A DNA stretch of 41,156 bases from the IMG/VR virus record IMGVR_UViG_3300047320_000119, positions 1-41,156 of that record. One strand, written 5' to 3'. Below, in pieces: positions 1 through 41,156 of this stretch; position 1 is the stretch's first letter; every line of letters begins with the position of its first letter. Both the position numbers and the translations under genes were made by a program. This stretch comes from a virus. The notes under the pieces were generated by a model, which saw nothing but the letters and a program-made list of their open reading frames with translations, was not told the origin of the DNA and did not search any database.

Positions 1-127
1 CCCTCGTTGTCCCTCGTTGTCCCTCGAGCGGCTCTGAACTAGCACATTCCTGAAGGCCCACCTATTTCAAACTTGCTTTGGCATTTTACATAATAAACAC
101 TATACTATTGGTATTGACAAAACCATT
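1..127. repeat. Terminal direct repeat, left copy
   Basis: Identical to 41030-41156. A 127-base exact overlap equals a common maximum assembler k-mer, so this is most simply the closing overlap of a circular contig and not a biological terminal redundancy. The circle is then about 41,029 bp. The repeat starts inside the TTGTCCC array that continues from 40770-41052 and contains the promoter of the first gene. Confidence 0.95.
78..106 (+). promoter_or_regulatory. Promoter of the Mor-like activator gene
   Basis: TTGGCA (78-83), a 17-bp spacer and TATACT (101-106) form a good sigma70-type promoter. Its start point would be near 113, about 20 bases before the activator reading frame. The same sequence appears again at the right end because the element is circular. 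Confidence 0.6.
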
Positions 128-133
128 GGAGCT

Positions 134-577
134 GTGTTGCAGCCACCCCTGCCCGATTCAGTTCAGGAAATCGCTGACGTTATTGGTCGCGAGCGTGCGC
201 TGCTGCTCATCGGCCGCCTGCCTCGGTACTCATGCAGAGGAGCCACGAACCGTGTGCTGCTGTATGTGCCGAAGCTGGCGAATCTCACTGCAGACCACAA
301 ACTGGTCGGCATTCTGGGCCGGAGCGACGCAGAGAGGCTTTGTCGGGTGTTCGGTGGCGAGACTTTGAAGCCGGCGAACTGCGCGTTTATCTACAAGCGA
401 TACCGCGACTCGCAGATTGTGCGTCTGGCAAACGAAGGATTGGATTCACCCCGCATCTCTGAACTCATGAACGTCAGCGCGTCGCAAGTGCGCCTCATTC
501 TGCAACGCGCGCGTGCGCGTATCTCGCAGGAGGACTCGCGAAGCGGTGTTGACGAGAATGGGCCGTATACCACCTAA
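134..577 (+). CDS. Mor/C-family transcription activator
   Basis: A 147-aa protein resembling the Mor/C activators of Mu-like phages, which turn on middle or late phage promoters as DNA-binding dimers. The N-terminal part (residues about 7-45) has the usual acidic helix pattern around EIADVIG and a segment ending in YVPK. The C-terminal part (about 88-130) carries the basic helix-turn-helix, with RDSQIVRLANEG followed by ISELMNVSASQVRLIL. It is the first gene after the control region and is directly followed by lysis and terminase genes, as expected for the late switch. The listed start is GTG at 134; TTG at 137 has a better-spaced GGAG. Its 3' end holds the first copy of the repeated late-region motif. 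Confidence 0.75.
   Translation: MLQPPLPDSVQEIADVIGRERALLLIGRLPRYSCRGATNRVLLYVPKLANLTADHKLVGILGRSDAERLCRVFGGETLKPANCAFIYKRYRDSQIVRLANEGLDSPRISELMNVSASQVRLILQRARARISQEDSRSGVDENGPYTT
519..534 (+). promoter_or_regulatory. Late-region repeated motif, copy 1
   Basis: GTATCTCGCAGGAGGA, inside the 3' end of the activator gene and 59 bp before the first lysis gene. It matches four other plus-strand copies (4839, 7698, 11579, 17642), two of them intergenic. The function is inferred only: a late promoter or activator site, or an RNA-level element. Confidence 0.5.
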
Positions 578-593
578 CACTGAAATAGCAACA

Positions 594-851
594 ATGGAAC
601 ACCAACCCGATAACACTTTTCTCGGCGCCAAGCTCGTTTCAGCCTGGTTCGCAGTCGGTATCTCTTCATGGTCCGATTTCGCGGCTTTCTGCGCCGCGGG
701 CTACACCATCATGCTCGGCGCCCACTTTCTGTGGGTTCACGGCCTTCGACAGTTTTTCGTCAATCGCGGCCTCCTGAAACCGCTCACGCCTGTAGAGAAA
801 CAAGCCGTCGAGCAAGAGAAAAAGGAAGAAGACAATGAGCTCCCTCTTTAA
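594..851 (+). CDS. Putative holin
   Basis: An 85-aa small membrane protein at the head of the lysis cassette. Hydrophobic stretches lie at residues about 10-25 and 28-48, followed by a charged C-terminal tail rich in E and K (residues 65-83), the usual holin layout. ATG at 594 is preferred over the upstream in-frame start at 513 because that extension overlaps the activator gene out of frame and reads as shadow. The function rests on position and topology only; an antiholin or a phage-encoded membrane anchor is possible. Confidence 0.6.
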   Translation: MEHQPDNTFLGAKLVSAWFAVGISSWSDFAAFCAAGYTIMLGAHFLWVHGLRQFFVNRGLLKPLTPVEKQAVEQEKKEEDNELPL

Positions 852-1017
852 GCACGCAATGGGCATCCTGGCCCTGGCTATCGTCATTACGGCCTTCCTG
901 TTGATTCTCTTCGTCGACCGCGGATGCTGGCTCGCTTTTGATGCCGTCATGGTTCTCGCGTGCGGCGCCGATTTCATGACCTACGCGCGGAGTATCCATC
1001 GTGGAGCTCAAGTTTAA
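835..1017 (+). CDS. Second small membrane protein, holin/antiholin candidate
   Basis: A 60-aa protein with a long hydrophobic segment at residues about 8-27 and a second weaker one at about 32-47. It overlaps the end of the 85-aa gene by 17 bases and is followed at once by another small membrane protein and the endolysin. Having several short membrane proteins before a SAR endolysin fits a holin or pinholin plus antiholin arrangement. I cannot say from sequence which one is the hole former. Confidence 0.6.
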   Translation: MSSLFKHAMGILALAIVITAFLLILFVDRGCWLAFDAVMVLACGADFMTYARSIHRGAQV

Positions 1018-1156
1018 GCGCGCTATGCAAGGGCTGCTCATCGCCCTCACCATCGCATACTCAATCGCATCAGCTATGTCACCGAAGAGCGCTGATGCTG
1101 ACTCGCATACGACGTCCGGTCCCGGCACGTTTTTCCTGCTGGTCGCGACGCTCTGA
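1001..1156 (+). CDS. 51-aa membrane peptide resembling the endolysin N-terminus
   Basis: A short gene starting with GTG at 1001, eight bases after GGAG, and ending TGA at 1154-1156. It encodes a cytoplasmic basic start (MELKFKRA), a hydrophobic segment at residues about 10-25, a polar middle and a second hydrophobic end at about 43-51. Its first bases, GTGGAGCTCAAGTTTAAG, closely match the start of the endolysin gene (GTGCAACTCAAATTTAAG; MQLKFKPS). It therefore looks like a duplicated endolysin signal-anchor start that was kept alone. It may modulate lysis timing, but that is inference. Confidence 0.5.
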   Translation: MELKFKRAMQGLLIALTIAYSIASAMSPKSADADSHTTSGPGTFFLLVATL

Positions 1157-1165
1157 GGTTGAATC

Positions 1166-1651
1166 GTGCAACTCAAATTTAAGCCCAGCGCCAAGCTCAT
1201 TGCTATCGTAGGAGCAAGCGCAGCAGCAATCCTCACCGCAACCGTTCCGCAGCACGAAGGCGTGAAGCTCACCGGCTATCGCGACCCTGTAGGCATTGCG
1301 ACGTCATGCGTGGGCCACACGGGCGCTGATGCAGTCGTCGGAAAGAGCTATACGGTTGATGAGTGCCAGACGACGCTCAACGCCGACCTGGAGAAGCACG
1401 CGGCCGGCGTCATGGCCTGCATCCACAAACCGATGACGGATGGCGAGAAAGCGGCGTTTTCGAGTTTCGCATTCAACGTCGGCGTCGCGAAGTTCTGCGG
1501 CTCTGGGATGGCTCGCAAAGCCAATGCCGGCGACATGAAAGGCGCCTGCGCTGAGCTCAGCAAATGGGTCTATGCCGGCAACAAGGTGTTGCCGGGCCTC
1601 GTTAAACGTCGCGCCGATGAGCGCGCAATCTGTGAAGGGAAGTCGCAATGA
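1166..1651 (+). CDS. SAR-type endolysin, GH24 lysozyme family
   Basis: A 161-aa muramidase related to P1 Lyz and P21 R. It hydrolyses the MurNAc-GlcNAc bond of peptidoglycan. Residues about 9-27 form a weakly hydrophobic, Ala/Gly-rich signal-anchor-release segment, so export would be Sec dependent and activation would follow release from the membrane. The GH24 triad is visible as E31, D40 and T46 with the standard spacing (E-8-D-5-T). Start GTG at 1166 follows TGAGG. The 3' end overlaps the Rz start by four bases. Several Cys residues (C48, C68, C84, C110) could take part in the disulfide switching known for SAR endolysins. Confidence 0.9.
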   Translation: MQLKFKPSAKLIAIVGASAAAILTATVPQHEGVKLTGYRDPVGIATSCVGHTGADAVVGKSYTVDECQTTLNADLEKHAAGVMACIHKPMTDGEKAAFSSFAFNVGVAKFCGSGMARKANAGDMKGACAELSKWVYAGNKVLPGLVKRRADERAICEGKSQ

Positions 1652-2175
1652 ACAAGTACCTCATCATCGCCGCAGCCGTTGCCAGTATTGGCCTCGCTGT
1701 AGGCGCATACGAGTTTGGTGTTCACGTCGAGCACCAGGCCCGCCTGGCCGAAGTGACTGGCCTGAAGACAGAGGCTGCGCTGTCGCTCGCAGCCGCAAAC
1801 AAATCCGCTGCTGATGCACAGCAAGCGGCCCGTGACATCGAAGCAAAGCGTGTTGCGGATATGTCCGCTATCGACACGCAATACCAAACGGAGTTGAACA
1901 ATGCGAAAGCTGATGCTGACAACACTATCGCTGGCCTGCGCGCTGGCACTCTCAGCGTGCGCAGCAGGCTCACCTGCCCTCGCCCCGGCCTGTCCGGCAC
2001 CGGTACCAGCACCACGCCTGGCGCCAGTGCCAGCAGCGCTGCTGACGCCAGTGCCTACGGACTTCAAGACGAAGATGTTGAGTTTCTGTTGCGAGAAGCC
2101 GACCGCGCCGACGCAGTAACGCTGCAGCTGCGTGCCCTGCAGGACGTCGTCAGGCAGGAACGCGAGGGGCAGTGA
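1648..2175 (+). CDS. Rz: Rz-like inner-membrane spanin
   Basis: A 175-aa protein with an N-terminal transmembrane anchor (residues about 4-22) and a long helical periplasmic region rich in A, E, K and Q (about 35-100 and 140-175). This is the standard i-spanin form that joins inner and outer membranes for the last step of lysis. The middle (about 105-135) is low complexity (G, S, T, P) because the out-of-frame lipoprotein gene is nested there. It overlaps the endolysin end by ATGA. Confidence 0.8.
   Translation: MNKYLIIAAAVASIGLAVGAYEFGVHVEHQARLAEVTGLKTEAALSLAAANKSAADAQQAARDIEAKRVADMSAIDTQYQTELNNAKADADNTIAGLRAGTLSVRSRLTCPRPGLSGTGTSTTPGASASSAADASAYGLQDEDVEFLLREADRADAVTLQLRALQDVVRQEREGQ
1901..2119 (+). 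CDS. Rz1: Rz1-like outer-membrane lipoprotein spanin
   Basis: A 72-aa protein wholly nested in another frame of the Rz-like gene, the usual Rz/Rz1 arrangement. It has a signal peptide and a lipobox LSAC, with the lipidated Cys at about residue 20. The mature part is very rich in Pro and Ala (about 25-50), as in known o-spanins. It would pair with the inner-membrane spanin across the periplasm. Confidence 0.8.
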   Translation: MRKLMLTTLSLACALALSACAAGSPALAPACPAPVPAPRLAPVPAALLTPVPTDFKTKMLSFCCEKPTAPTQ

Positions 2176-2417: not shown

Positions 2418-2927
2418 ATGATTGTCAACCGAACTGAGCTTGCAAAAGCTTTCAATAAATCGCCTCCGACCATCGACGTCTGGGTCGCTGACGGCTGCCC
2501 TATTCAAAAGAAGAGTAGTAAAGGCGTTGCCGCTGAGTTCGTGCTTCCTGACGTCATCGCCTGGTACACCGCAAAGGCGGTTTCAGTCGCAACCGGCACC
2601 ACTCCGGCAGACGAGTCGGAGCTAAAGCTGCGTCGCCTGAAGGCTGAGACCGAGATTTCGGAGCTCAACCGTGAAAAGACGGAGCTCGACCTGGCGAAAG
2701 CCAAGGGCGAAGTGTCGGCGGTGCGCGACTTCGAGCGCGCGCAGGCCTCAATTTTCGCAACCATCCGCCAGAACGTGCTGATGACTCCGGCCAACGTCGC
2801 ATCGTCGCTGATGGGCTGCACGGACGAATCCGAGTTCAAGCGCGTGATGGTCGCGGCGCTGAAGGAGGCGCTCGAGTCTGCAGCGAATGCTGACATCGAG
2901 CTCGACGACGAAGAAGAAACGACGTGA
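2418..2927 (+). CDS. terS: Terminase small subunit, Nu1-like
   Basis: A 169-aa DNA-recognition subunit of the packaging motor. Residues 1-50 form a winged-helix domain with the Nu1 pattern: start MIVNRTELAKAFN, then TIDVW at about 19 and a DVIAWY motif at about 45. Residues 70-100 are a charged helix (LKLRRLKAETEISELNREK) suited to dimerisation. It overlaps the large subunit start by GTGA, so the two are translationally coupled. Length is close to lambda Nu1 (181 aa). Confidence 0.85.
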   Translation: MIVNRTELAKAFNKSPPTIDVWVADGCPIQKKSSKGVAAEFVLPDVIAWYTAKAVSVATGTTPADESELKLRRLKAETEISELNREKTELDLAKAKGEVSAVRDFERAQASIFATIRQNVLMTPANVASSLMGCTDESEFKRVMVAALKEALESAANADIELDDEEETT

Positions 2928-4951
2928 AAGTAACAAACCAGTTCTCCAATCCGCTTGCCGTTCTCGCCTCGCTGCGGAACGCGCTGAAGCAGCTCAAGCC
3001 GCCTCCGGACATTGCGCCGTCGAAGTGGGCGGAGGATAACGTCTGGATTCCAGAAGGCAACGCGAAGCCAGGCAAGCTGCGCTTCACCAACGCGCCATAT
3101 CAGCGCGGGATGCTCGACGTCATCAAAGAGCCCGGCGTGTACCGAGTGACGTACATGACTGGCGCCCAGCTGGGCAAGACGACCGTGCAGCAGTGTGTGA
3201 CGGGCTACTTCATCGCGCACGAACCGCGCTCGCAGATGTTCGTGCAGCCCAGCCAAGGCGACGTGCAGACGTTTTTGGAAACGAAGCTGCGGCCGATGCT
3301 CGAGTCGAATCCTACCATCCGCGAAAAGATGGCGAAGCCGCGCGGGCGCGACGGCGTGAACAACAGCCGCATCATCAGTTTCATGGGCGGCTTCCTGATG
3401 TTCGCCTGGGCGGGCTCGACGAAGACCCTCCGCGGCCGCAGTGCGCCAATCATCCAGGCCGATGAAATCAACGGCTTCGAGACCACCGCCGAAGGTGACC
3501 CGGGCGAGCTCATCGCGCAGCGCGCGGCGTCGTTCGGCGACCAGGCTCTGCGCACGGAAAGTTCCACGCCGACAGAGAAAGGCGGCCGCATCGACAAGGC
3601 ATTTTACGAAGGCGACCAACGCCGGTACTACGTGCCCTGCCCGCACTGCGACGCGCCCCAATATTTGCGCTGGGAAAACGTCATGTGGACCGGCCGGCGG
3701 TCTACCGGCATCGAGGATTACGCGAAGGACCAAAACCGCGCTGACGAACACAATCCGCTCGACGCGCAGTACATGTGCGAAGCGTGCGGCGTGGGCTGGA
3801 GTGACGCTGAGCGCAAGGCCGCCATTCGTGCGGCTGAAGCTGCCGGCCACGGCTGGAAGGCTGCGAAGCCGTTCAAAGGCCACGCTTCGTTCCACGCGCC
3901 GGAGCTGCTGTCGACGTTCCGCGACATGAGCAAAATCGTCCAGTCCTACCTGGACAAAATCGCGCTCGACGACATGCGCTCGTTCGTGAACGTGTCGCTG
4001 GGCGAGCCGTATGAGGTCGAAGGCGACAAAGCGGACCCGAACAAGCTGATGGCCCGCCGCGAGGTCTACAAGGCCCAGGTACCGATGGGCGCGGTGTACG
4101 CCACTGCAGGCATCGACGCGCAGGCCGACCGGTTGGAAGTTGAGCGCGTGGGCTGGGGCATTAACGAAGAGTCCTGGCGCATCGACTACAAAGTGCTGTG
4201 GGGCGATACGCTCCTGCCGGAAGTCTGGATTGAGCTCGAGGACTACCTGAACGAAGAGCTCCAGCACGAATCTGGCGCAGTCATGCGCGTCCGTGCGGCC
4301 TGCGTCGACACGGGTGGCCAGGCTGGCCACGATGCGGTGGTTCACGACTGGCTTCGCGGCAAGACGGGGCGCGGCATTTTTGGTATCAAGGGCACGCCAG
4401 GCTGGGGCAAGGGCGTTATCGGCACGATTATGCGCAAGCAGCAGGGTAAGAACGCCCGGAAAGTTGACGTGTACCCAGTCTACGGCGACGAGGCGAAGCT
4501 TCTCATCATGCGCCGCCTGGCGATGGAGGCTCCCGGGCCGGGCTTTTGCCACTTCGACGAGGACGCTGACGAAGAATATTTCGCGCAGCTCACTTCCGAA
4601 AAGCTCGTTACGCACTATACGAAAGGGTTCCCGGTGCGAAAGTGGTGCAAACCGCCGAAGGCGCGCAACGAAGCGCTCGACTGCCGCGTGTACGCGTATG
4701 CGGCGCTGAAAATCATGCGTCCGGACCTGAAAAGGCTCACCGAACGCATAGCAGGCGCCGAATACACCCCGCCAAAGCAGCTTGTGAAGCCCAGGAAGGC
4801 TCCAGAACCGGCTCCAGCGGCCGCTGAGGTACCCACGCCTATCTCGCAGGGGGAACGCCCGGTTAAGGCCCCGGAGAATGTGCCTATTGTCCGGTCCAAG
4901 CGCCTCACTGCCCGTAATGGCGGCGGTGGAAATTGGGCCACACGCTGGTAA
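2924..4951 (+). CDS. terL: Terminase large subunit, lambda gpA-like
   Basis: A 675-aa packaging ATPase and nuclease of the lambda gpA family. The N-terminal half is the ATPase, with the nucleotide-binding loop MTGAQLGKTT at residues about 78-87. A zinc-ribbon-like segment has CPHC near 240 and CEAC near 286. The C-terminal half is the nuclease that cuts cos. Start is GTG at 2924, overlapping the small-subunit stop. The last 60 residues are Pro/Ala rich and include PISQGE, encoded by the second copy of the repeated late motif (4839-4854). Confidence 0.92.
   Translation: MKVTNQFSNPLAVLASLRNALKQLKPPPDIAPSKWAEDNVWIPEGNAKPGKLRFTNAPYQRGMLDVIKEPGVYRVTYMTGAQLGKTTVQQCVTGYFIAHEPRSQMFVQPSQGDVQTFLETKLRPMLESNPTIREKMAKPRGRDGVNNSRIISFMGGFLMFAWAGSTKTLRGRSAPIIQADEINGFETTAEGDPGELIAQRAASFGDQALRTESSTPTEKGGRIDKAFYEGDQRRYYVPCPHCDAPQYLRWENVMWTGRRSTGIEDYAKDQNRADEHNPLDAQYMCEACGVGWSDAERKAAIRAAEAAGHGWKAAKPFKGHASFHAPELLSTFRDMSKIVQSYLDKIALDDMRSFVNVSLGEPYEVEGDKADPNKLMARREVYKAQVPMGAVYATAGIDAQADRLEVERVGWGINEESWRIDYKVLWGDTLLPEVWIELEDYLNEELQHESGAVMRVRAACVDTGGQAGHDAVVHDWLRGKTGRGIFGIKGTPGWGKGVIGTIMRKQQGKNARKVDVYPVYGDEAKLLIMRRLAMEAPGPGFCHFDEDADEEYFAQLTSEKLVTHYTKGFPVRKWCKPPKARNEALDCRVYAYAALKIMRPDLKRLTERIAGAEYTPPKQLVKPRKAPEPAPAAAEVPTPISQGERPVKAPENVPIVRSKRLTARNGGGGNWATRW
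4839..4854 (+). promoter_or_regulatory. Late-region repeated motif, copy 2
   Basis: CTATCTCGCAGGGGGA within the 3' end of the large terminase gene, 100 bp before the next gene. It shares GCCTAT-TCGCAGG with the other copies. Because copies 4 and 5 are noncoding, the conservation is more likely to act at DNA or RNA level than in the protein. Confidence 0.5.
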
Positions 4952-4954
4952 CAG

Positions 4955-5497
4955 ATGACACAACTCAACTCCACTTTCCATATCCGAGCCCTCGCTGGGT
5001 TCGATTTCGACTACAGCGTGAAGCGAGATGACTATCCGGTCGACAAATGGCAGCTCAGTGCTGTCATTCGCGGCCCGATGGCCATCGACCTAGTTGCCGC
5101 GGTGCAGGGTGAATCGTTCGTGTTTTCCGCGCCGGCATCGACTACCACAACCTGGCTGCCTGGTGAGTATTGGTACAGCCTGCGCGCGACCAACGGCACC
5201 GCTGTTCGGGAGATGGATAGCGGCCGTATGACCGTAAGCCCCGACCTGGCGGCCATGACCGAGCCTTATGACGGCCGCAGCCCGGCGGAACTCGCGCTCG
5301 CATCAATCGAAGCTGTGCTCGCGAAGCGCGCTACGCAGGACCAACAGCGCTATACGATTAATGGGCGTGAGTTGTGGCGCACTCCTATTCCCGAACTGCT
5401 GAAGCTGCGGACCTTCTACGCAGTGCAAGTGAGCCGCGAAAGAGCCAGTAAGAGCGGCAAAAATCGCTTCGGCCGCCCAATTTACGTGAAATTCTAA
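4955..5497 (+). CDS. Head-tail connector, gpW-like C-terminus with extra N-terminal domain
   Basis: A 180-aa protein between terminase and portal, where lambda has the 68-aa gpW joining protein. The last ~75 residues (about 108-180) fit a gpW-like unit: helix SPAELALASIEAVLAKR, a central NGREL turn and helix PELLKLRTFYAVQV. The first ~100 residues look like a beta-rich, Ig-like domain (repeated aromatic/hydrophobic strands, WLPGEYWYSLRA). It therefore reads as a connector fused to a possible surface or structural domain. The stop overlaps the portal start. The family call is inference from pattern and position. Confidence 0.6.
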   Translation: MTQLNSTFHIRALAGFDFDYSVKRDDYPVDKWQLSAVIRGPMAIDLVAAVQGESFVFSAPASTTTTWLPGEYWYSLRATNGTAVREMDSGRMTVSPDLAAMTEPYDGRSPAELALASIEAVLAKRATQDQQRYTINGRELWRTPIPELLKLRTFYAVQVSRERASKSGKNRFGRPIYVKF

Positions 5498-7059
5498 TGA
5501 AACTGCCATTCTTTAACGGTCGTCGCAACGAGCAACCGAAGCCTGCGCGGGCAAAGCGCAACTTCATTCCCTCGCTCGCTCAGAACCTCAAGAATAGCGT
5601 CGCTGGCATGTTCAAGTCGTCGTATGCCGACGCAATGGACGGCTGGGGCACGATTCCGACATCGCCGGACCAATTCATCGCCATGCGCCAGCCGGCGCTT
5701 GTCGCGCGCTCGCGTGAGCAGTGGTCGAATAACGACTACGTGCACGCGTTCGTTCGCAAGTGCGGTCAGAACATCGTCGGCAGCAACGGCGTCGTCATGC
5801 AGGGAAAGGTTGCTCTCGCAAACGGCAAGCCCGACGCGAATGCCAACAATGCCCTCGAAGACGCCTTCAAGTGCTGGGCTGAGCCGGACAACTGCGATGT
5901 GACGGGCGAATCGTCATGGCGTGAGCTGCAGGTAATGGCGGTCGAGCACGCGGCACGCGACGGTGAGTTCATTTTCCGAAAGGTCTTCGGTGAGTCGGCA
6001 GGCAAGTTCGGCTTCGCGCTGCAGGCCATCGACCCTATCCGTCTGCCCGTTCAGTATGAGGCGGGCACCTACGGCGAAAGCGGAAATTTCATCCGCCAGG
6101 GCGTCGAGTTCACGAAGTACGGAAAGCCGGTTGCGTATCACTTCACGTCGCTCGACGAGTGGGACTCGTACTGGTACAGCATCAACGGCAAGGGCTACGT
6201 TCGCGTGCCGGCCGAAGAGATTATTCACGGATTTGTGAAGGGAATGGCTGGGCAGCGCCGCGGTATTCCTTGGACGGCTACAAGCTTGTTCCGCCTGCAT
6301 CACTTGCAGGGCTTCGAAGACGCAGCTGTGCAGAATGCGCGCGCGTCGGCGTCGAAAATGGGCTTTTTCGAGCCGGATAAGGACCTCGCGCAGAACGATG
6401 ACGACGCAGATTATGACTTAACAATCAACGCTGAGCCGCTGTCGTTTCACACGTTGCCTCCCGGCTACAAGCTTGCCGAGTGGTCGCCGAACTACCCGTC
6501 TGGTGAGTTTGCAGTTTTTCACAAAGCGATGCTTCGTGGCTCTGCGGCTGGCATGGGCGTGGGCTACAACGAGCTGTCGGGTGACCTCGAAGGCGCGAAC
6601 CTGTCGACTATGCGCACAGCTGCTGTGACCGAGCGTGAGTTGTGGAAAGACCGCCAGATGTGGCTCATCGAGAAGCTGTGCATTCCGGTGTATCGCGAGT
6701 GGCTGAAGCATGCCCTGCTCCGCGGTCTCATCGCCGGAAAGAACGGCAAGCCGCTGCCTCCGGCAAAAATCGCTGCGTATCAGGACGTGCATTTCCAAGG
6801 CCGTCGCTGGACCTGGATGGACCCGCTGAAGGAAGCGACCGCGAACGTTCTGGAAATCCAGACCGGTATCAAGTCGCCGTCGGCGGTTATCCGTGAGCAA
6901 GGCAAGGACCCGGACGACGTTTACCGTGAAATCGCGCAGGACATGCAGCGGATGAAGGAAGCCGGTATTCCGGAGAACGTCATCCAGAAGATTTTCGGCC
7001 TTCCGCTGGCACCGATTGACCCTAACGCAATCATCGCCGGCACTCAATCCGACGACTAA
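5497..7059 (+). CDS. Portal protein, lambda gpB-like
   Basis: A 520-aa portal forming the dodecameric DNA channel at one capsid vertex. The sequence follows the lambda portal family: an N-terminal SREQWSNNDYVHAFVRKCGQNIVG segment at about 69-92, a central LQAIDPIRLPVQYE region, and a conserved GVGYNELSGDLEGANLSTMR segment near 350-370. Its start overlaps the upstream connector stop by one base. A 49-bp gap with an AAGGAG site precedes the capsid gene. Confidence 0.92.
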   Translation: MKLPFFNGRRNEQPKPARAKRNFIPSLAQNLKNSVAGMFKSSYADAMDGWGTIPTSPDQFIAMRQPALVARSREQWSNNDYVHAFVRKCGQNIVGSNGVVMQGKVALANGKPDANANNALEDAFKCWAEPDNCDVTGESSWRELQVMAVEHAARDGEFIFRKVFGESAGKFGFALQAIDPIRLPVQYEAGTYGESGNFIRQGVEFTKYGKPVAYHFTSLDEWDSYWYSINGKGYVRVPAEEIIHGFVKGMAGQRRGIPWTATSLFRLHHLQGFEDAAVQNARASASKMGFFEPDKDLAQNDDDADYDLTINAEPLSFHTLPPGYKLAEWSPNYPSGEFAVFHKAMLRGSAAGMGVGYNELSGDLEGANLSTMRTAAVTERELWKDRQMWLIEKLCIPVYREWLKHALLRGLIAGKNGKPLPPAKIAAYQDVHFQGRRWTWMDPLKEATANVLEIQTGIKSPSAVIREQGKDPDDVYREIAQDMQRMKEAGIPENVIQKIFGLPLAPIDPNAIIAGTQSDD

Positions 7060-7108: not shown

Positions 7109-9124
7109 GTGAAGCGAGACAAGACGCAGAGCGCAGGTGAGTTCATCGCGCGCAATCTGCAAGAAATCAAAGACCTTGGCGGCCTGGCGCGCGTCGCCAC
7201 CGTCGGCGCTATCGACGTCGAAGCGCGCACTGTCGAAGTGTCGTTCTCGAGCGAGACGGATTCGGTCGAGCGCTGGTTCGGCATCGAAGTGCTGTCGCAT
7301 GACGCCGGCGCAGTTGACCTGTCGCGCCTTAATAACGCTGCACCGGTGCTCTGGATGCACAACACCACGGACCAGCGCGGCGTCGTGGTGTCGGCGCGCG
7401 TCGACGCGGACCGCAAGGGCCGTGCGGTGCTGCGTTTCAGCCAGAACCCTGCCGGAGAACAGCTGTTCCGCGACATTCAGGACCAAATCGTCACAAAAAT
7501 TTCGGTCGGTTATCAGCCGACGGGCATGCGGCTCGTCGAAGAAAGAGCCGATGGAACGGACGTGTTTTTGGTGACGAGCTGGCAGCCGTACGAAATTTCT
7601 TTGGTTTCTGTGCCTGCAGATGACTCAGTAGGCGTCGGACGAAGCTATACAAATAAACAAGGTGTCGCGTCGGATAGCACAAAAGCTGTGTCCGCGCCTA
7701 TTTCGCAGGGGGAAGTTAACAACGAATCCCGCGAAACTCGTAGTAATCCTCAACCCACCCAACCAACAAAGGGTAAGCAAAAAATGGAAAAATTCCTTCG
7801 TGACGCGTCGGGCAATCTCGTCCGCGCAATCGTGGATGAAGCTGGCGCAATCACGCAGGTGCTCGAAGTCATCGAGCGCGCCGGCGACGACGCACGCAAC
7901 GCGCAATCGCGCGGTGCAGACACGGAACGTAGCCGCGTTCGCGACCTGACCGAGATGGGTAAGCAGTATGGCAAGTCTGACCTCGCGGCTGAGTTCGTTC
8001 TGACGGGCAAGTCGGCAGAAGACTTCCGTCGGGAACTGCTCGGTGCATTCGCAGCTGAGCGTACCGCAAAGCCGATGGCTGACCAAGTCAAGGGTTCTGA
8101 AATCGGCCTGACCGACAAGGAAACGCGCCAGTTCTCCATCCTGAAGGCAACCCGCGCGCTGGCCAACCCGCACGACAAAAAGTTCCAAAAGGACGCTGCA
8201 TTCGAATTCGAGTGCTCGCGTGCCGCTGAAGACATGTACGGCAAGCAGTCGAAGGGCATCCTGATTCCGTCGGACGTGCTTAACCGCGCGTTCGCGACGA
8301 CCACTGGCGGCGGCGCTGCCGTGGCTACGAACCTGCTGGCGAACCAGTTCATCGAGCTGCTCCGCCACAAGACCTGGGCGATGAAGCGCGTCACCACGAT
8401 GGGCGGACTCGTCGGCAACGTCGACATCCCGCGTCAGAACGCTGCTGGCCAGGCGTACTGGGTCGGTGAAGGCGGCGCTCCGACGGCATCGGCACCGGGC
8501 CTTGACCAAATCGCGTTCACGCCGAAGTCGCTGGCTGCATACACCGACGTGACCCGTCGCCTGATGCTGCAATCGACGCCTGACGCAGAAGCGATGGTCC
8601 GCAACGACCTGCTCCGCGTGCTGGGCCTCGAGCTCGACCGCGCTGTGCTGTACGGCACCGGTGCTGACGGTCAACCGAAGGGCCTGCTCAACCAGAACGG
8701 CCTGGCACACGTGGACCTGGCTGGCATGTTCGCCTCGTTCGCCGAATACGTCGCAATGGAAACAGAAATCGCCGCAGCTGACGCTGACGTAGAAGTAATG
8801 TCGTACGTCATCAACGCGAAGGCTCGCGGCAATGCGAAGACCACGCAGAAGTTCCCTGGCACGCCGACTGGCGCGACCATCTGGGAACAGGGCAACACTA
8901 TCAACGGCTACAACGTCGATGTGACGAACCAGCTGGTCGATGGCGACGCCTTCCTGGGCGCCTGGTCGAGCTACGTCGTGGCAATGTGGGGCGGTCTCGA
9001 CCTGACGGTCGACCCGTACTCGCTGAGCACGTCGGGCAGCACGCGTCTGGTGGTGTTCCAGGAAGTCGACATGAACGTCCGCCACCTCGAGTCGTTCGTA
9101 CACGGCTCCAAGCCGGCTGCGTAA
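7109..9124 (+). CDS. Prohead protease fused to HK97-fold major capsid protein
   Basis: A 671-aa fusion. Residues about 30-190 are an HK97-type prohead serine protease with the active-site His at H84 (WMHN) and Ser at S132 (KISVGY). A polar linker (about 195-225) follows, then a capsid protein from Met226 (ATG at 7784) with a helical delta-like region (about 226-330) and the HK97 shell domain (about 375-670). The GTG start at 7109 follows AAGGAG. The linker contains repeat-motif copy 3 and an internal ATG behind a weak AAGGG, so a separate capsid product is possible. Two strong hairpins end the unit. Confidence 0.9.
   Translation: MKRDKTQSAGEFIARNLQEIKDLGGLARVATVGAIDVEARTVEVSFSSETDSVERWFGIEVLSHDAGAVDLSRLNNAAPVLWMHNTTDQRGVVVSARVDADRKGRAVLRFSQNPAGEQLFRDIQDQIVTKISVGYQPTGMRLVEERADGTDVFLVTSWQPYEISLVSVPADDSVGVGRSYTNKQGVASDSTKAVSAPISQGEVNNESRETRSNPQPTQPTKGKQKMEKFLRDASGNLVRAIVDEAGAITQVLEVIERAGDDARNAQSRGADTERSRVRDLTEMGKQYGKSDLAAEFVLTGKSAEDFRRELLGAFAAERTAKPMADQVKGSEIGLTDKETRQFSILKATRALANPHDKKFQKDAAFEFECSRAAEDMYGKQSKGILIPSDVLNRAFATTTGGGAAVATNLLANQFIELLRHKTWAMKRVTTMGGLVGNVDIPRQNAAGQAYWVGEGGAPTASAPGLDQIAFTPKSLAAYTDVTRRLMLQSTPDAEAMVRNDLLRVLGLELDRAVLYGTGADGQPKGLLNQNGLAHVDLAGMFASFAEYVAMETEIAAADADVEVMSYVINAKARGNAKTTQKFPGTPTGATIWEQGNTINGYNVDVTNQLVDGDAFLGAWSSYVVAMWGGLDLTVDPYSLSTSGSTRLVVFQEVDMNVRHLESFVHGSKPAA
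7698..7713 (+). promoter_or_regulatory. Late-region repeated motif, copy 3
   Basis: CTATTTCGCAGGGGGA at the protease-capsid junction, 70 bp before the internal capsid ATG at 7784. Its position at the exact domain boundary suggests it could start or process a capsid-only message. The role is inferred. Confidence 0.5.
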
Positions 9125-15343: not shown

Positions 15344-15355
15344 AGGACCAAGAAA

Positions 15356-17192: not shown

Positions 17193-17201
17193 GGAGTTTA
17201 C

Positions 17202-30287: not shown

Positions 30288-31229
30288 TCAGAACGCCTTG
30301 ATGACGCGCGGCACGCTTGTGAGCGACGGCCGCAGGTACAGACCTCCAGCGGTCGGCTCGACGTTGGCCTGTGGGTACACTTCGACTACCTGATGGAGCG
30401 CGCGCCGGACTGTTTCGCGGAACTTCTTATCGGCGGCCGCACCGGAGCCGAACTGAAGCTTGAGCGCCTCCCACGGCACCGTCGTCGGCTTGTTGAGCGC
30501 GAAGAACCGATACGTCAGGTAGCAGTACAAGTCGAGAGCCATCGGCGACTGGCGTAGCGCGCGCAGCACGCGAAGGTCAACCGGCACAGGATGCGCAATC
30601 ACTTCGTCGTAGAACCGGCCGGACAGGGTCACGGTAGACTGCCACAGGCCGGCCTGCTCCGGCTTCTGCGGGCTCCACCATAGGTTCGCATCGTCAGCGA
30701 CGTTGAACTTGCTTTGAGCGAAGTCAGCTCCGGCTGCCCCGCCTTTCACGATTGCCATGTCGGAGGCAAACAGTCGCTTCATCTGCTCGCGCAGCCTGGT
30801 GATTGAGCCTGCGGTCCCGCCTGTGTGAGACGTGATTCCTATCGAGTTCATGAACTCGCCAAGCGAGTCTCCGAGCACAAGCTCCTTCGACTTCTTCCTC
30901 ACCGCCTCGGTAGAAAGCCACGCGAGAATCAGCCTCGGCACGGTTCCGAACGGATAGCCCATGCTGACGTGCTTGTTCTCTTTCTGGTTCCAGTAGTAGC
31001 CCGGCTTGATGATGAGCGACACATCGCCAGCTGAGCGGCCCCAGGCAGGCAACTCGCGGTCGGGCTCGCGGTACGGCAGCGTAGCCTGGACCATGGCACG
31101 CGCGAGAAACCCTGCCATGCCAGCGCGTATCGCGTCTTCCTGCTCGATGGCAATGGCCTCTTCAATCAGGCGCGTCGCGACGTTCGGGCGCACCGCTTCA
31201 GCTCGACTGAATTTCTTGACTTCACCCAT
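30288..31229 (-). CDS. repA: Plasmid replication initiator, RepA_C family
   Basis: A 313-aa initiator that binds iterons and opens the plasmid origin. ATG at 31229 is chosen for its CAGGAGG site; the upstream reading to 31370 runs through iterons. The family core is clear at residues about 85-165: YPFGTVPRLILAWLSTEAVR, then KELVLGDSLGEFM, then TGGTAGSITRLREQMKRLF. The C-terminal part has a second winged-helix pattern (DLYCYLTYRFFALNK, then FRETVRRALHQVVEVYPQA). It is similar to RepA of broad-host-range plasmids such as pVS1-type replicons. The origin lies immediately upstream. Confidence 0.9.
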   Translation of the reverse strand: MGEVKKFSRAEAVRPNVATRLIEEAIAIEQEDAIRAGMAGFLARAMVQATLPYREPDRELPAWGRSAGDVSLIIKPGYYWNQKENKHVSMGYPFGTVPRLILAWLSTEAVRKKSKELVLGDSLGEFMNSIGITSHTGGTAGSITRLREQMKRLFASDMAIVKGGAAGADFAQSKFNVADDANLWWSPQKPEQAGLWQSTVTLSGRFYDEVIAHPVPVDLRVLRALRQSPMALDLYCYLTYRFFALNKPTTVPWEALKLQFGSGAAADKKFRETVRRALHQVVEVYPQANVEPTAGGLYLRPSLTSVPRVIKAF

Positions 31230-31280
31230 CACGTCCCTCCTGGAATTCGTGCGATTACACCACAGGCCGCGGCCGTTTTC

Positions 31281-31446
31281 ACGCATATGTTGGGGCGGCG
31301 TATCAGCCTGTGGATAAGGTCTGTGGACAACCTGAGTTATCCACGCATATGTTGGGGCGCTGTTACGCATATGTTGGGGCCGCTGTTACGCATATGTTGG
31401 GGCTTATCCACGCATATGTTGGGGCCGCTCACGCATATGTTGGGGC
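31281..31446. other. Plasmid origin: six direct iterons and DnaA boxes
   Basis: The unit ACGCATATGTTGGGGC is repeated exactly at 31281, 31343, 31365, 31388, 31410 and 31431. The last five are spaced 21-23 bp apart, about two helical turns. A perfect DnaA box TGTGGATAA lies at 31309-31317 and near-boxes TTATCCACG at 31338 and 31404. An AT-rich stretch follows at 31447-31540. This is the standard layout of an iteron-controlled theta origin just upstream of repA. Confidence 0.9.
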
Positions 31447-31629
31447 ATTTTTAAACGCAACCTATTGATTGCAAAGCGAAAAACTCCATCTCTAGGTTTT
31501 GCTTTTATGGGTTTAGGTTACTTCTATGTTTACTTGTAGCGCAGCCTGCTGCTGTGGAGAGCTTCGCTCACCACCATCCGCAGGCCGCTCCACCAGCAAC
31601 GATGAGATACCTGAAGGTCAAAACCGACT

Positions 31630-31781
31630 GCCCCAACATATGCGTGCGGTTACGTATCTACGGAAATACGAAGATACGTACGTACGAATCTAGGTACATA
31701 GGCGCCTGCGTAGGTGCCTATGTGTACATAATGGCCCCAACATATGCGTGATGGGGCCAGAACGCGCCCCAACATATGCGT
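31630..31781. repeat. Three inverted iterons beside parB
   Basis: GCCCCAACATATGCGT, the reverse complement of the origin iteron, occurs at 31630, 31734 and 31766. The last touches the parB stop codon. Between the first two are inverted repeats ACGTATCT/AGATACGT (about 31651-31680) and an ACATAGGC/GCCTATGT pair (about 31697-31724). The group may act as a copy-number control locus (as incA does in P1) or as part of a partition site. Confidence 0.8.
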
Positions 31782-32230
31782 TACTTGAGCCCGTGCTTTT
31801 TCTTGAGCTCCGCTACGTGCGCGCGCGTGCCGGCCACGACCATCGCAGAGAACTCGTAGCCGAGCGCCTGGAGCGTGTCCATATCGTCGAGCAGGCTTAC
31901 AGGCATGCGGTAGTTGCGCTGGAGCGTGTGTTCGCGCGCGTTGGCCTTCCGGATGGCAAGGATTTCCTGAAGGCCCATCTGGCGCTCAACAGGCTCCTCT
32001 GGAGGCGTCTCCGCTGCGGGCGCCGATTGCGGCTCAACGGCCGATGCAGGCTGTGCGGGTTCCTTAGCGGACGCCGGCGACGCCGGCTCGTTCGTTGCCG
32101 CGGGCTGGCCTTGGGAAACAACGTCGCTGGCCTTCTCCAGGTTGGCGAGCACGTCTTCCGTATTCTTGGGCCTAGCGGCGGCGTCTTTCGCTCCGATAGG
32201 TCCGCCCAACTCGGGATTTCTTCTGCTCAT
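31781..32230 (-). CDS. Small ParB-type centromere-binding protein
   Basis: A 149-aa protein following parA with an ATGA overlap. The N-terminus is basic and polar, residues about 45-82 are Pro/Ala/Glu-rich and probably disordered, and the C-terminal ~50 residues (TLQRNYRMPVSLLDDMDTLQ, then SAMVVAGTRAHVAELKKK) look like a ribbon-helix-helix DNA-binding unit as in ParG. It is too short for a classic CTPase ParB. It should bind the plasmid centromere and stimulate the ParA ATPase. Confidence 0.75.
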   Translation of the reverse strand: MSRRNPELGGPIGAKDAAARPKNTEDVLANLEKASDVVSQGQPAATNEPASPASAKEPAQPASAVEPQSAPAAETPPEEPVERQMGLQEILAIRKANAREHTLQRNYRMPVSLLDDMDTLQALGYEFSAMVVAGTRAHVAELKKKHGLK

Positions 32231-32910
32231 TTGAACACCTCCATGTACACGTCCTTCACCTCGTTTGCCGCTACCGGGTCGAACTCCGAGCCCTTCAGCT
32301 CATGCACGCCACGGCCCAGCGCGTAGCCGAACTTGAACGACTCCCGGAAGCCCACCATCGTCGGCAGCAGCGGCAACGCCTCGCTGAAGGCGCTCATTTG
32401 TCCCACGATGTACTTCGTCATGCGCTTGCGCGGGTCCGCCTGATTGAGCAGAGCGCTCAGCGCGAGGCTCTCTCCAGTGCGGTCCTCGATGCCCTGCGCC
32501 ACCTCCAGTAGCGCCGGGATGGTGTCCAGGTCCTGCATCGAAGGCGTCAAGGGCACAATCACTTTGTCTGCAAATAGAAGCGCCGCGCGGAATAGGTCGG
32601 TGTCTTGACCGCCGATGTCCAAGAACACTACGTCGAAGCCTTTGGCGAAGTCCATCACGTCGCGCGTGAAGGCATCCTTCTCCACCCTACCCTTTCCAGG
32701 TGGCGACAGGTCATCAATGTGACGTAGGTGGATTTCAGCCAAGCCGTCCTGCGCGCGACGGCGCGCGATGAACTTCGTGCTAGACGCCTGTCTATCAGCG
32801 TCATAGATGGCGACCCGGAATCCCAAAGACGCGCGGATTGCTGCCATGTTTTGGTTGAGGGTCGACTTGCCCACCCCTCCCTTTTCTGCTCCAACCATGA
32901 CTATGGTCAT
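32227..32910 (-). CDS. parA: ParA-type partition ATPase
   Basis: A 227-aa Walker-type ATPase for plasmid segregation. The deviant Walker A KGGVGKST is at residues 10-17, followed by AIYDADRQASS near 34-44. FDVVFLDIGGQDTDLFR near 90-106 is the switch II region. It lacks an N-terminal regulatory domain, so it is the short (type Ib) form that pairs with a small centromere-binding protein, as found here. AGGAG lies seven bases before ATG. Confidence 0.92.
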   Translation of the reverse strand: MTIVMVGAEKGGVGKSTLNQNMAAIRASLGFRVAIYDADRQASSTKFIARRRAQDGLAEIHLRHIDDLSPPGKGRVEKDAFTRDVMDFAKGFDVVFLDIGGQDTDLFRAALLFADKVIVPLTPSMQDLDTIPALLEVAQGIEDRTGESLALSALLNQADPRKRMTKYIVGQMSAFSEALPLLPTMVGFRESFKFGYALGRGVHELKGSEFDPVAANEVKDVYMEVFK

Positions 32911-33015: not shown

Positions 33016-33049
33016 GATGTATAGCTTTACACGTGTATAGCTATACATC
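33016..33049. promoter_or_regulatory. 11-bp-arm inverted repeat; parS/par operator candidate
   Basis: GATGTATAGCT and AGCTATACATC form perfect 11-bp arms around a 12-bp centre that itself contains the palindrome ACACGTGT (33029-33036). It ends 17 bp upstream of the par promoter -35. Small ParA/ParG-type systems place their centromere or operator just here. Confidence 0.6.
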
Positions 33050-36884: not shown

Positions 36885-39260
36885 TTAGATGGGCAGGCCG
36901 TCGTCTTCGTCGCGGTATCCACTGCGGAGCATCGGAGGCATGTCGAACACGCGGCGGCCACAGGACTTGCGCGACTCTTTGCCCGTCAGACGGCGCAGGA
37001 TGGTGCCCATATCGTCCCGTTGCTGTTTCGTCGGCGTGAGGTAGCCAATCTGCTCGAGCACGTCCGTCGGTGTGAGGGCGGCGACACGGTTCGCTGCAGA
37101 CCAGTCGAAGCGCGACAGCACCTTCTCCTCGAGGGGGTCGACCTTTTCGTGCTCGCGGTTGCTCATCTCGAGTCGCGCCTCTTCATCCGGCTCAAGCCAC
37201 CACTGCTCACCGCCCTCTACGAGCTCCGCGACTTCAGCCCACAGCTGCTGCATGTCGATGCTGTGTCGGAAGTTCACTGCGATGACAGGCAGTGTCCACC
37301 AGCGCACGTTGCCGGTGTCGTCGGCCAGGAAGTTCTTCGGGTTCACGCTCGCGAAGAACACCGTGCGACGCTTGTACGTCGACTCCAGGCGGTCATACGG
37401 GCGGCGCAGCTGGTCGATGTCCTGGCTGATAAAAGCCTTCAGACGCGCGATGTCGGCTTTGCGGAACGTGCTGTCCAGTTCGCCCAGCTCGACCATCCAG
37501 TGCCCGATAGCAGAGCTGATGGTGTCTTTGTTCGCCGGGTCGACGAGCGCGCCTACTTTCAGCAGGTCACGGTTCACTTCAGGCACCAGCGCCATGAACC
37601 AGGCCGTCTTACCAATCGACTGCCCGCCCTGGAGGACCAGCACGCCCTTGCTGCGGAAGTTCGGTTTGATGACGGCAGCCGCGGCGGAGAGGAGCCAGCG
37701 GCGCACGAGCAACTTCATGAAGTCGCGGTCGAAGCCCGGCGCGAGCGTGAGCGTCTCATACAGCGCATCGAGCCGCGACACGCCATCCCACGGTTTGGAC
37801 TCAATCAGCTCGCGCGCCGGGTTGAATTTGTTTTTGTCGCCGATGAGCTTCAGGTGCAAGTCTGTGTCAGCCTTCGGCATGCCGTTGCGGGCGCACAGCG
37901 TGTTGATTTCAGCGAGCGCGCAGTTCGCTGCCGTGTCTTCGTCATAGCTCCGGCCGGGGATGGTGACGATGACGTCTTTCTTCACGACGTTGTAGCGCGC
38001 CGTGATGCCGTACACGTCGAGCATCTCTTTGAGGTTTTGCCATGTGTTGAGCGGGCGGTCCTTTTCAGAGCGGTCAGGGAACACGCCGGTCGCCAGCGCG
38101 TCCAGGTCGTCGACGAGCTTGTAGGCCTTCGCCGGTGCGGTAGCGGCCGGAGCGGTGCCAATGACAGCGATGTGGTGCGACGACTCGTCGAACGACGGGC
38201 CGCCGGCGACGATGGTTTCAGTAGCGCCCTCATGCGATGTCAGGTAGCCGAGCATGCGCTCTGCGTCCCAGCCGTCCGCCTTGCCGTCTGCCAGGTCCCA
38301 GCCCGGTTCGAATTCGCCCGGCACATAGCCGACCATGGTCGTGTTTGCTGCGACGCCGTTCAGGCTGTTGGCGATGTTGTTCATTGCGATGATTCCGGGT
38401 TGTTTTTCGAGCTGCAGAACTTCGCCAGTTGCTTTGTCGACTTGCGCGTCGAAGTCGGGCCACAGCACGACGAGGCGGCCAGCGAGCGGGCTCACATCGA
38501 CTTTGTCTGATGCCGGCACGCCGTTGAGCCAGGTCACGACGACAGCACGGGTGCCCACGATGGCTTGCGCTGCATCAGCGGCCTTTTCGCCTTCGACGAC
38601 GATGACATCCTGGTTCGGGTGTTGCGCCAGGCGCTCGATGCCGTAGAGCGGGCGGGGCGTGTCGCCAGTGATACCGACCCAGTCCCAGCCTGCAGGGGCG
38701 TTGTCTTTGCGCTTGTCGCACCACGTGTACGGGCGGATTTGCTTGCGGTCGCCGGGGTTCTTCGGGTCGAAGCGGCACACATACATCAGCACGTTGCCGG
38801 CGGCGTCGCGATACGTCCAGACGGTGTCAGGCTTAGCGCGAAGACCTTCGTGATAGAACGTGGGCTCAGTAGCGTGAGCGGGCACCGGAAGGACCGGTAC
38901 CGACCGGTTCTCGTCGATTGCGCGAGCCTTCTGAGCCACGGCTTCGACGCCAGCTTTGCGAGTCACGGCGTTCAACGTGATGCCGTTGTTTTCGGAGAGC
39001 TCGCGGGCGGCTTCACCTTGCTTCATTCCATGGAGGTAGGCGTACAGGCTAATCATGTCGCTGCCGGAGTCTTTCGTTGCAAAGTCCGACCAGACGCCCG
39101 TCTTCAGATTGATGCTGAAGCTGCCGGCCTCGCTGTCGCCGCGCGTCGGGTTCGGCGCTACCCATTCGCTGTTGCGACGCTTGCCGTCGGGCAGCCACAT
39201 CGGTACTACGACTTCCGGGTTGAGGCTGGACTTGATTACTGCGAAATCTGCTTTTTGCAT
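36885..39260 (-). CDS. Primase/VirE-type helicase replication protein
   Basis: A 791-aa two-part replication protein. The N-terminal part has a primase-like start (GSFSINLKTGVWSDFATKDSG near 46-66) and a Toprim core with VIVVEGEKAADA at 219-230 and VVLWPDFD at 264-271. The C-terminal part is a VirE/VapE-type helicase ATPase: Walker A GGQSIGKT at 545-552, Walker B near WMVELGELD at 588-596, and RRTVFFASVNPKNFL near 631-645. Such enzymes start and drive phage DNA synthesis. The element thus has a lytic replicase separate from repA. No strong ribosome site precedes the ATG. Confidence 0.88.
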   Translation of the reverse strand: MQKADFAVIKSSLNPEVVVPMWLPDGKRRNSEWVAPNPTRGDSEAGSFSINLKTGVWSDFATKDSGSDMISLYAYLHGMKQGEAARELSENNGITLNAVTRKAGVEAVAQKARAIDENRSVPVLPVPAHATEPTFYHEGLRAKPDTVWTYRDAAGNVLMYVCRFDPKNPGDRKQIRPYTWCDKRKDNAPAGWDWVGITGDTPRPLYGIERLAQHPNQDVIVVEGEKAADAAQAIVGTRAVVVTWLNGVPASDKVDVSPLAGRLVVLWPDFDAQVDKATGEVLQLEKQPGIIAMNNIANSLNGVAANTTMVGYVPGEFEPGWDLADGKADGWDAERMLGYLTSHEGATETIVAGGPSFDESSHHIAVIGTAPAATAPAKAYKLVDDLDALATGVFPDRSEKDRPLNTWQNLKEMLDVYGITARYNVVKKDVIVTIPGRSYDEDTAANCALAEINTLCARNGMPKADTDLHLKLIGDKNKFNPARELIESKPWDGVSRLDALYETLTLAPGFDRDFMKLLVRRWLLSAAAAVIKPNFRSKGVLVLQGGQSIGKTAWFMALVPEVNRDLLKVGALVDPANKDTISSAIGHWMVELGELDSTFRKADIARLKAFISQDIDQLRRPYDRLESTYKRRTVFFASVNPKNFLADDTGNVRWWTLPVIAVNFRHSIDMQQLWAEVAELVEGGEQWWLEPDEEARLEMSNREHEKVDPLEEKVLSRFDWSAANRVAALTPTDVLEQIGYLTPTKQQRDDMGTILRRLTGKESRKSCGRRVFDMPPMLRSGYRDEDDGLPI

Positions 39261-40054: not shown

Positions 40055-40135
40055 CCAATAGAATTTAGCTATTTGGCCGATAGCCCAAAACTATTGATAA
40101 CTTCTATTATGTCAAATTGGGCAGGCGATGGACGT

Positions 40136-40158
40136 AAAAAAGCCGCCTCGCGGGCGGC
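40136..40158 (-). terminator. Terminator of the 116-aa gene
   Basis: Minus strand: GCCGCC, loop CGCGA, GGCGGC, then T6 (complement of 40136-40158). It is placed about 20 bp after the gene. Confidence 0.85.
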
Positions 40159-40179
40159 CTGGTGTGTGCTTGCTTCGGC

Positions 40180-40530
40180 TTACTCGTCGTCGTCGTCGTG
40201 CGCTACCCGACGGTCGTGAACGTATAGCCCATCGTCGTGCATCGCGTCGTTCATCGCTTGCGGATACGCGTGGTCGTCAACAGAAATCGGCGCGGTGCGT
40301 TCGCGCAGCTGCGCGAACGTGGCTTTGTCGAGGATGCCGTAATTGCGGCACTCACCCTCCGGGCTCACGACCAGCACCAGGTACTCATCGTTGTCGAGCT
40401 GGTACACATCGACACGGTTGCCGCCCATGAGAGTGATATACGGAGTGTGCAGCGCCTCAGTCGCCGTGCGCGATGCTGCATGTGCTTGCTCGAGGGTCCA
40501 CGGGGTGTTGATGTCAAATGTATTAGTCAT
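40180..40530 (-). CDS. Unknown acidic protein, 116 aa
   Basis: A 116-aa acidic protein with its own promoter and terminator. The middle reads as a small beta domain (YITLMGGNRVDVYQLDNDEY, then LVLVVSPEGECRNYGIL), and the C-terminus is rich in Asp and His and ends DDDDE. It is the gene nearest to the GGGACAA array. Acidic DNA-mimic or antirestriction roles are possible but unsupported. Confidence 0.65.
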   Translation of the reverse strand: MTNTFDINTPWTLEQAHAASRTATEALHTPYITLMGGNRVDVYQLDNDEYLVLVVSPEGECRNYGILDKATFAQLRERTAPISVDDHAYPQAMNDAMHDDGLYVHDRRVAHDDDDE

Positions 40531-40582
40531 GTTGTTAAATCCTAAGAGAGAGGTTGTGTTGTCTTCGCTTTGTTTGCATAAC

Positions 40583-40610
40583 AGTATAGCGCGAAGTGCA
40601 GCTATGTTAA
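40583..40610 (-). promoter_or_regulatory. Promoter of the 116-aa gene
   Basis: Minus strand: TTAACA (complement of 40605-40610), a 16-bp spacer with GCACTTCGCGC, TATACT (complement of 40583-40588). A close member of the shared promoter family. Confidence 0.7.
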
Positions 40611-40769
40611 CAGTCGGAGTTAACTATCACAATTGATATTTTCTATCGCCCCGCCGGCTATGGACTATCACGGCATGTCCGTGACCTGGCGGCTGTCGGC
40701 GCGCGCCGGGCATCGCGCTGAGCGTGGAGCTGCAGGTCTTGCCTTCAGTGATGTGCTGGTTCGGAGCTG

Positions 40770-41056
40770 CTCGAGGGACAAGAGGGACAACGGAGGGACA
40801 ACGAAAGGGACAACGTTGTCCCTCGAGAACACCGCTTATTTAAAGGCTCTTTTCCTCAAAAATGGGTCAATAGGGACAAGAGGGACAACGTTATACAAAG
40901 TAGTAATGTATCTATAGAAAACCTATAGGTCCTATAGGATTGCCAGTAGCTTGTCCCTCTTGTCCCTATTGCAGCAATATTTCCAAAAAGAGGCTTCTCT
41001 GCCTCGAGTTTTCGGAGGGACAACGTTGTCCCTCGTTGTCCCTCGTTGTCCCTCGA
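40770..41056. repeat. GGGACAA repeat array with perfect palindromes
   Basis: Thirteen copies of GGGACAA or its complement lie between 40775 and 41052. Forward copies: 40775, 40784, 40795, 40807, 40873, 40882, 41017. Reverse copies: 40816, 40951, 40960, 41026, 41036, 41046. They build an 18-bp palindrome (40806-40823), a 20-bp palindrome GAGGGACAACGTTGTCCCTC (41015-41034) and a 21-bp inverted repeat (40868-40888 with 40951-40971) around an AT-rich core with CCTATAGG twice. It is noncoding. Candidate lytic origin, centromere or operator cluster. Confidence 0.85.
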
Positions 41057-41156
41057 GCGGCTCTGAACTAGCACATTCCTGAAGGCCCACCTATTTCAAA
41101 CTTGCTTTGGCATTTTACATAATAAACACTATACTATTGGTATTGACAAAACCATT
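41030..41156. repeat. Terminal direct repeat, right copy
   Basis: Exact copy of 1-127. It shows that the sequence closes on itself. It carries the last TTGTCCC units of the array and the promoter of the Mor-like activator. Confidence 0.95.

Follow-up and report, generated by a model that had tools for sequence, protein, structure and literature searches.

The virus record IMGVR_UViG_3300047320_000119, a stretch of 41,156 nucleotides which over its full length is referred to here as the window, very probably represents a temperate, contractile-tailed phage akin to Burkholderia phage Mica that has given up its integrase and is maintained in the host as a circular plasmid of low copy number. Identity and order of its components, their co-conservation and the kinship of its replicon are established at the level of the sequence and include the features expected of a phage-plasmid, namely a full set of packaging, virion and lysis genes, a plasmid-type initiator with a matching origin, partition genes and the lack of an integrase. 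The original prediction of a phage-plasmid gained firmer support than the letters alone could give, from a replicon that matches Burkholderia plasmids down to the iteron, an empty integrase position and two sister circles with the same partition locus; the argument from the overlapping ends and the alleged novelty of the combination did not survive.

The plasmid replicon

The replicon and the partition locus of the window comprise the following features:

30288..31229, minus strand, RepA, plasmid replication initiator (RepA_C; PF04796, 6e-35)
31280..31447, plus strand, six direct iterons upstream of repA, exact copies, five of them spaced 21-23 bp
31309, minus strand, perfect DnaA box TTATCCACA within the direct iteron block
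31447..31550, AT-rich stretch (~61% AT), candidate melting region
31630..31782, minus strand, three inverted iteron copies (31630, 31734, 31766), exact
31781..32152, minus strand, small ParB-like partner of uncertain start (frame open as far as ~32230), adjoining ParA in four genomes
32227..32910, minus strand, ParA (short form, 227 amino acids; phrog_164, 1.7e-35)
33016..33049, palindrome upstream of parA, candidate centromere or operator with the core GTATAGCTATAC

RepA shares 71-73% identity, across 97% of its length, with the RepA proteins encoded by Burkholderia and Paraburkholderia plasmids. A search of 50,697 phage records produced no RepA of comparable quality and only one distant partial match, and a single-protein scan of viral contigs gave no match. 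All nine exact copies of the 16-bp iteron ACGCATATGTTGGGGC lie within 31281-31781 and none elsewhere in the genome, set against about 2e-5 copies expected by composition. In the Burkholderia glumae plasmid p3_BGR21S, the RepA of which is 71% identical to that of the window, sixteen CGCATANNNNGGGGC repeats are situated upstream of repA, and one of them agrees with the window iteron over all 16 bases. The set that characterizes Burkholderia plasmid replicons, RepA_C with CGCATANNNNGGGGC iterons and a DnaA box, is hence present in the window, and the kinship of RepA and the shared iteron assign the initiator and its predicted binding sites, the iterons, to a single plasmid replicon type that is already known. 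A RepA with an iteron origin, as initially read from the letters, was thereby confirmed.

The partition locus

Relatives without a phage name are given here by our own G and L labels. Two of them, G001 (IMGVR_UViG_3300046463_000397, 38.9 kb) and G048 (IMGVR_UViG_3300043754_000009, 42.0 kb), are closed sister genomes with a 127-bp overlap each, and L269 is a fragment. ParA of the window is 92% identical to that of G001, 77% to that of L269 and 71% to that of G048, and the small ParB-like protein is 70% identical in G048 over the conserved (aligned) part. The latter had no match in Pfam or to any other family, its AlphaFold model is poor (mean pLDDT 63) and an hhalign comparison with gp41 of Burkholderia phage KS14 was negative. 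The predicted pair of ParA and a small ParB was nevertheless retained, ParA by profile match and ParB by its conservation beside ParA in the four genomes; the ParG-type (ribbon-helix-helix) label found no confirmation. Of 23 records compared, the four that bear the partition locus all have the 12-bp palindrome core upstream of parA (L269 has it twice, at a somewhat greater distance), and it is absent from the 19 others. A further gene follows the same distribution:

28720..29178, plus strand, PagP-like outer-membrane protein (phrog_3600, 1e-23), also in G048 (286-735) and L269 (8643-9152)

By tblastn it was found only in partition-bearing genomes, with 93% identity between window and G001, and it is a candidate gene for lysogenic conversion or superinfection exclusion.

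The integrase position

24449..24964, integrase position of the relatives, without integrase or detectable remnant in the window

A homologous tyrosine integrase directly follows gpD in eight relatives (Mica, Mano, Persinger, G008, G010, G013, G022, G026), and none is found there in the window, G001 or G048. The claim that no integrase exists among the reading frames was supported by six-frame searches of the window, in which neither PF00589 (tyrosine integrase) nor PF00239 (serine recombinase) was matched; the accompanying claim for transposases holds among the window genes scanned, transposase models not having been run in six frames.

In Enterobacter phage Arya (L008) some 70 residues of the family integrase, with 70% identity, survive as a remnant at 25468-25704 beside a tRNA-Arg gene, pointing to a loss of integration in the Arya branch. 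Separately, a Mica-like phage was encountered in an isolate assembly of Caballeronia fortuita LMG 29320 (contig of 42,413 bp with a 77-bp end overlap, L308-L310), which contains neither a Mica-, Mano- or Persinger-type integrase nor any of the three Rep types described below and may be another extrachromosomal prophage with a maintenance system of a different kind.

Sister genomes and exchange of the initiator

G001 and the window are collinear along almost the entire genome (large terminase subunit, TerL, 90%; ParA and PagP-like protein as given above) and differ mainly in the segment from the VRR-NUC gene to parB, where in G001 a Rep_3 initiator replaces RepA and its iterons. This initiator (Rep_3 match 2e-27) has its own repeats and DnaA boxes and shares 45% identity with the KS14 Rep; PF01051 (Rep_3), present in G001, found no match in the window. 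The initiator of G048 has no Pfam match and aligns to RepL and to small-plasmid replication proteins in 179 plasmid records, its replicon being situated at the place of the integrase, between gpD and the early region. L269 displays the same arrangement as G048, with a RepL-like protein of 80% identity. One backbone and one partition locus are consequently combined with three unrelated initiators: RepA_C in the window, Rep_3 in G001 and a RepL-like protein in G048 and L269.

A tree built from eleven virion proteins (4,327 columns) places window, G001 and G048 in one clade with a support of 100, sister to the integrase-bearing Mica, G013 and G010, with the integrase-bearing G008 next. With direction and number of the swaps read from three complete members, the simplest history would have the lineage give up integration for plasmid maintenance a single time, together with a partition locus, and thereafter replace its initiator at least twice. 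We see an even chance that the lineage left integration once, gained ParA, ParB and the palindrome, and then, on at least two occasions, exchanged a cassette of initiator and origin while retaining the virion, probably escaping incompatibility with resident plasmids.

Virion and lysis genes

254..577, plus strand, late transcriptional activator (phrog_836, 1.3e-14)
594..851, plus strand, holin (phrog_21780, 1.4e-8)
1166..1651, plus strand, endolysin, phage lysozyme (phrog_7, 6.5e-54; PF00959, 6.4e-38)
1648..2175, plus strand, Rz-like spanin (phrog_2466, 1.4e-19)
2418..2927, plus strand, terminase small subunit (phrog_57, 9.9e-24)
2924..4951, plus strand, terminase large subunit, lambda gpA type (phrog_15, 2e-200; 90% to G001, 56% to Mica)
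5497..7059, plus strand, portal protein (phrog_21, 9e-95)
7109..9124, plus strand, protease-major capsid fusion (phrog_617, 5.5e-169; 62% to Mica)
10865-11527, 11626-11964, 11965-12867, plus strand, P2-type baseplate genes V, W and J (by homology)
13538..17501, plus strand, tail spike and tail fibre genes (by homology)
17734..24448, plus strand, sheath, tube, tail chaperone, tape measure, U, X and gpD tail genes (by homology)

Full sets of virion and lysis genes, as had been predicted, were recovered by PHROG and Pfam matches and by homologues in Mica, which exist for nearly all virion genes (sheath 74%); the tube protein was matched under the PHROG label 'head closure'. The lysis genes adjoin the terminase, and head and tail genes follow the order known from Mica. 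Ranked by capsid, Mica is the closest named phage, followed by Mano, Arya, ep3 and Persinger, with phiHAP-1 and VP882 at 33-36%. Head and tail are, by homology, those of Mica and its kin (Mano, Persinger, Arya). The joining of a P2-type tail to a lambda-type head, part of the combination not recognised at first, is the rule in this group and normal in Mica-like and phiHAP-1/VP882-type phages, some of which are plasmid prophages themselves. Synteny and homology of the virion genes are those of Micavirus; nucleotide identity falls below genus level (~75% across 18% of the initial 25 kb, with no match to Mica in the remainder), and the tyrosine integrase after gpD, a trait of Micavirus, is missing.

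The tail chaperone gene of the window (19796-20356) is a single frame of 186 amino acids that matches two chaperone families; in Mica the longer form is made by frameshift. The Klebsiella pneumoniae 'plasmid' p21080937_5 (L005, 26.5 kb) consists only of a Mica-like block of lysis, head and tail genes, with a capsid 61% identical to that of the window and no replication genes, and is likely a partial or contaminant sequence.

Genome closure and ends

1..127, terminal overlap identical to 41030-41156, assembly join of the closed genome

The reported end overlap of exactly 127 bases was reproduced by comparison of the ends, bases 1-127 matching 41030-41156, so that the circle measures 41,029 bp. 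A length of 127 is the customary end overlap of a closed contig from an assembly with k = 127, and the same exact overlap is common to five relatives; because of this k-mer length and this recurrence it is not a biological repeat. It marks a complete molecule, closed or head-to-tail, and says nothing on a plasmid state. As evidence for a plasmid, for which it had been adduced, it was rejected, since the integrase-bearing G008, G010 and G013 possess it as well. GC skew gave no clear agreement among the sisters, and Rfam yielded no match to the window at gathering score, low-scoring matches appearing only with a relaxed cut-off.

Further genes and repeats

26604..28040, plus strand, helicase of phage family (phrog_16, 5e-102)
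29486..29923, plus strand, VRR-NUC endonuclease, resolvase-like (profile match)
36885..39260, minus strand, VapE-type primase-helicase, probably for lytic replication (PF05272, 7.5e-48)
40774..41056 and across the join to base 25, second repeat array, AGGGACAA x13, family-wide

The second array was considered as plasmid origin or centromere and discarded, since equivalents occur in the integrase-bearing Mica, G008, G010 and G013 as well as in Arya and G017. Arrays of short repeats precede the late activator in all of these as well as in the window, G001 and G048, with a motif that drifts between relatives (TTGTCCC or GGTGAC type); they are a candidate lytic origin or operator and stand outside the plasmid argument. 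A joint movement of primase and array as a lytic replicon, suggested by window and G048 versus G001, was likewise dismissed, because the primases of Mica and G013 are 87% identical yet their array motifs differ.

The window also encodes an RNA ligase of the T4 Rnl1 type (33659-34813, minus strand; PF09511, 1e-25; TIGR02308, 6e-40), which is absent from all relatives compared and possibly serves this 41-kb phage as a tRNA-repair gene for counter-defence.

Proposed persistence and competing explanations

Injected DNA would be closed at cos ends, as is presumed from Mica, for which a 13-bp cos was predicted (PMC7883832). By analogy with plasmids of the RepA/iteron class, RepA would bind the iterons at 31.28-31.45 kb beside DnaA boxes, melt the AT-rich stretch and recruit the host replisome, resulting in theta replication by the host. 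Gene order and co-conservation suggest that ParA and the small ParB would share out the copies at the palindrome upstream of parA. Upon induction the primase-helicase module and the late activator may take over, and lytic replication would presumably proceed via the helicase and the VapE-type primase. Within the lineage, as far as the compared sequences tell, ParA, ParB and the palindrome are kept and initiator and origin are replaced.

Several observations weigh against persistence as a plasmid. Integrases are also missing in the lytic or possibly lytic relatives Arya, G017 and G021, and their absence alone is no proof of plasmid life because loss occurred elsewhere in the group (Arya). All three sister genomes stem from metagenome-derived viral records. 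The search of host assemblies that had been proposed was run with TerL: the scan of genome contigs gave no close copy, and in 399 Burkholderiaceae genomes the best matches reached 59-63%, so that no host was identified. No clear CI-type repressor was found among the window genes, only small helix-turn-helix (HTH) genes. Two small HTH repressor genes of the window (39315-39509 and 39792-39974) are tandem paralogues, duplicated in G001 and apparently single in G048 and Mica.

The lack of an obvious large repressor, together with the existence of related phages without integrase or Rep (Arya, G017), would suit a virulent phage which acquired plasmid rep and par genes as cargo or anti-plasmid weapons and never forms a plasmid lysogen. 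This is improbable, as the replicon is complete with origin, initiator, ParA, ParB and site, the three circular sisters keep partition despite different initiators, the PagP-like gene is confined to the par-bearing clade, and an iteron origin matched to its own RepA is not expected of cargo. An assembly chimera, in which a Mica-like contig was joined to a co-occurring Burkholderia-type plasmid, might be suspected of a viral record from a k-mer assembly with a plasmid-like RepA; we regard it as very unlikely, given that the separate record G001 is collinear including ParA, ParB and the genes flanking the replicon on both sides, the Rep segment being the main difference, and that the arrangement recurs, with another Rep, in two more records. 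Elements that lack an integrase can employ Xer, and integration via a host recombinase (XerCD or the integrase of another prophage), with Rep employed only after excision, was also considered, and an excisionase-like HTH protein at 25230-25520 (phrog_66, 4e-6) would agree with it. That gene is present in relatives including Arya, however, and is therefore a family regulator, and partition genes would be useless to an integrated element, which leaves this the least credible of the explanations. Maintenance as a low-copy circular plasmid is accordingly the reading we favour.

Integration and plasmid prophage are two modes of lysogeny, and the crossing of a lineage between them is little documented; in a survey from 2024 P1-like cases went mainly in the opposite direction (PMC10879196). 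The present set allows integrase-bearing relatives to be compared directly with three closed sisters that lack the gene. As the sisters possess different initiator families with a common partition locus and candidate centromere, the effect of Rep exchange on phage compatibility and persistence becomes directly testable, and a Burkholderia plasmid origin is tied to a phage, iteron for iteron.

Comparison with known systems

Mica, Mano, Persinger and Arya agree with the window in the order of head, tail and lysis genes and in the families of helicase, VRR-NUC protein and primase, whereas Mica, Mano and Persinger have a tyrosine integrase after gpD and no Rep or ParA. Unlike in Mica, the replication block of the window is inverted and holds the plasmid replicon.

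A contractile-tailed plasmid prophage with Rep and ParA, likewise part of the combination not recognised at first, has an experimental precedent in KS14, which miniprep showed to be a circular plasmid prophage (PMC3091744). KS14 and the window share a P2-type contractile tail, the lack of a tyrosine-type integrase, and Rep with ParA, the KS14 Rep being of the Rep_3 type of sister G001. They differ in the head (P2-type capsid, scaffold and terminase in KS14, lambda-type terminase and portal with a protease-capsid fusion in the window), in the initiator (Rep_3 versus RepA_C), in ParA (32%) and in the serine invertase encoded by KS14. The Hapunavirus-type phages phiHAP-1 (Halomonas) and VP882 (Vibrio), which live as plasmid prophages, resemble the window in the P2-type tail, the protease-capsid fusion and ParA, but are linear plasmids with a protelomerase; none was found among the scanned window genes, the model not having been run in six frames.

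In the Cluster A mycobacteriophages RedRock, Miko and Alma the integration cassette is replaced by parABS and replication functions, with more than one origin type per backbone (PMC7157519). They work alike, although phages and proteins are unrelated and the hosts are others, and their origins employ a RepA-like protein or RNA, in contrast to the three protein initiators of the window lineage. P1-like phage-plasmids and derived elements were described as exchanging replication and partition genes, for which an escape from incompatibility has been discussed (PMC10879196); those cases are mainly P1-derived plasmids, whereas the window lineage consists of three phage-complete sisters in which partition is kept and Rep alone changed. 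Judged from its genes, the window thus works like KS14, phiHAP-1/VP882, P1 and the parABS-bearing Cluster A mycobacteriophages and falls into none of these groups, because it departs from KS14 in head and initiator, yielded no protelomerase among its scanned genes and stays below the genus level in its identity to Mica; a place of its own, as a new phage-plasmid lineage next to Micavirus, seems most fitting.

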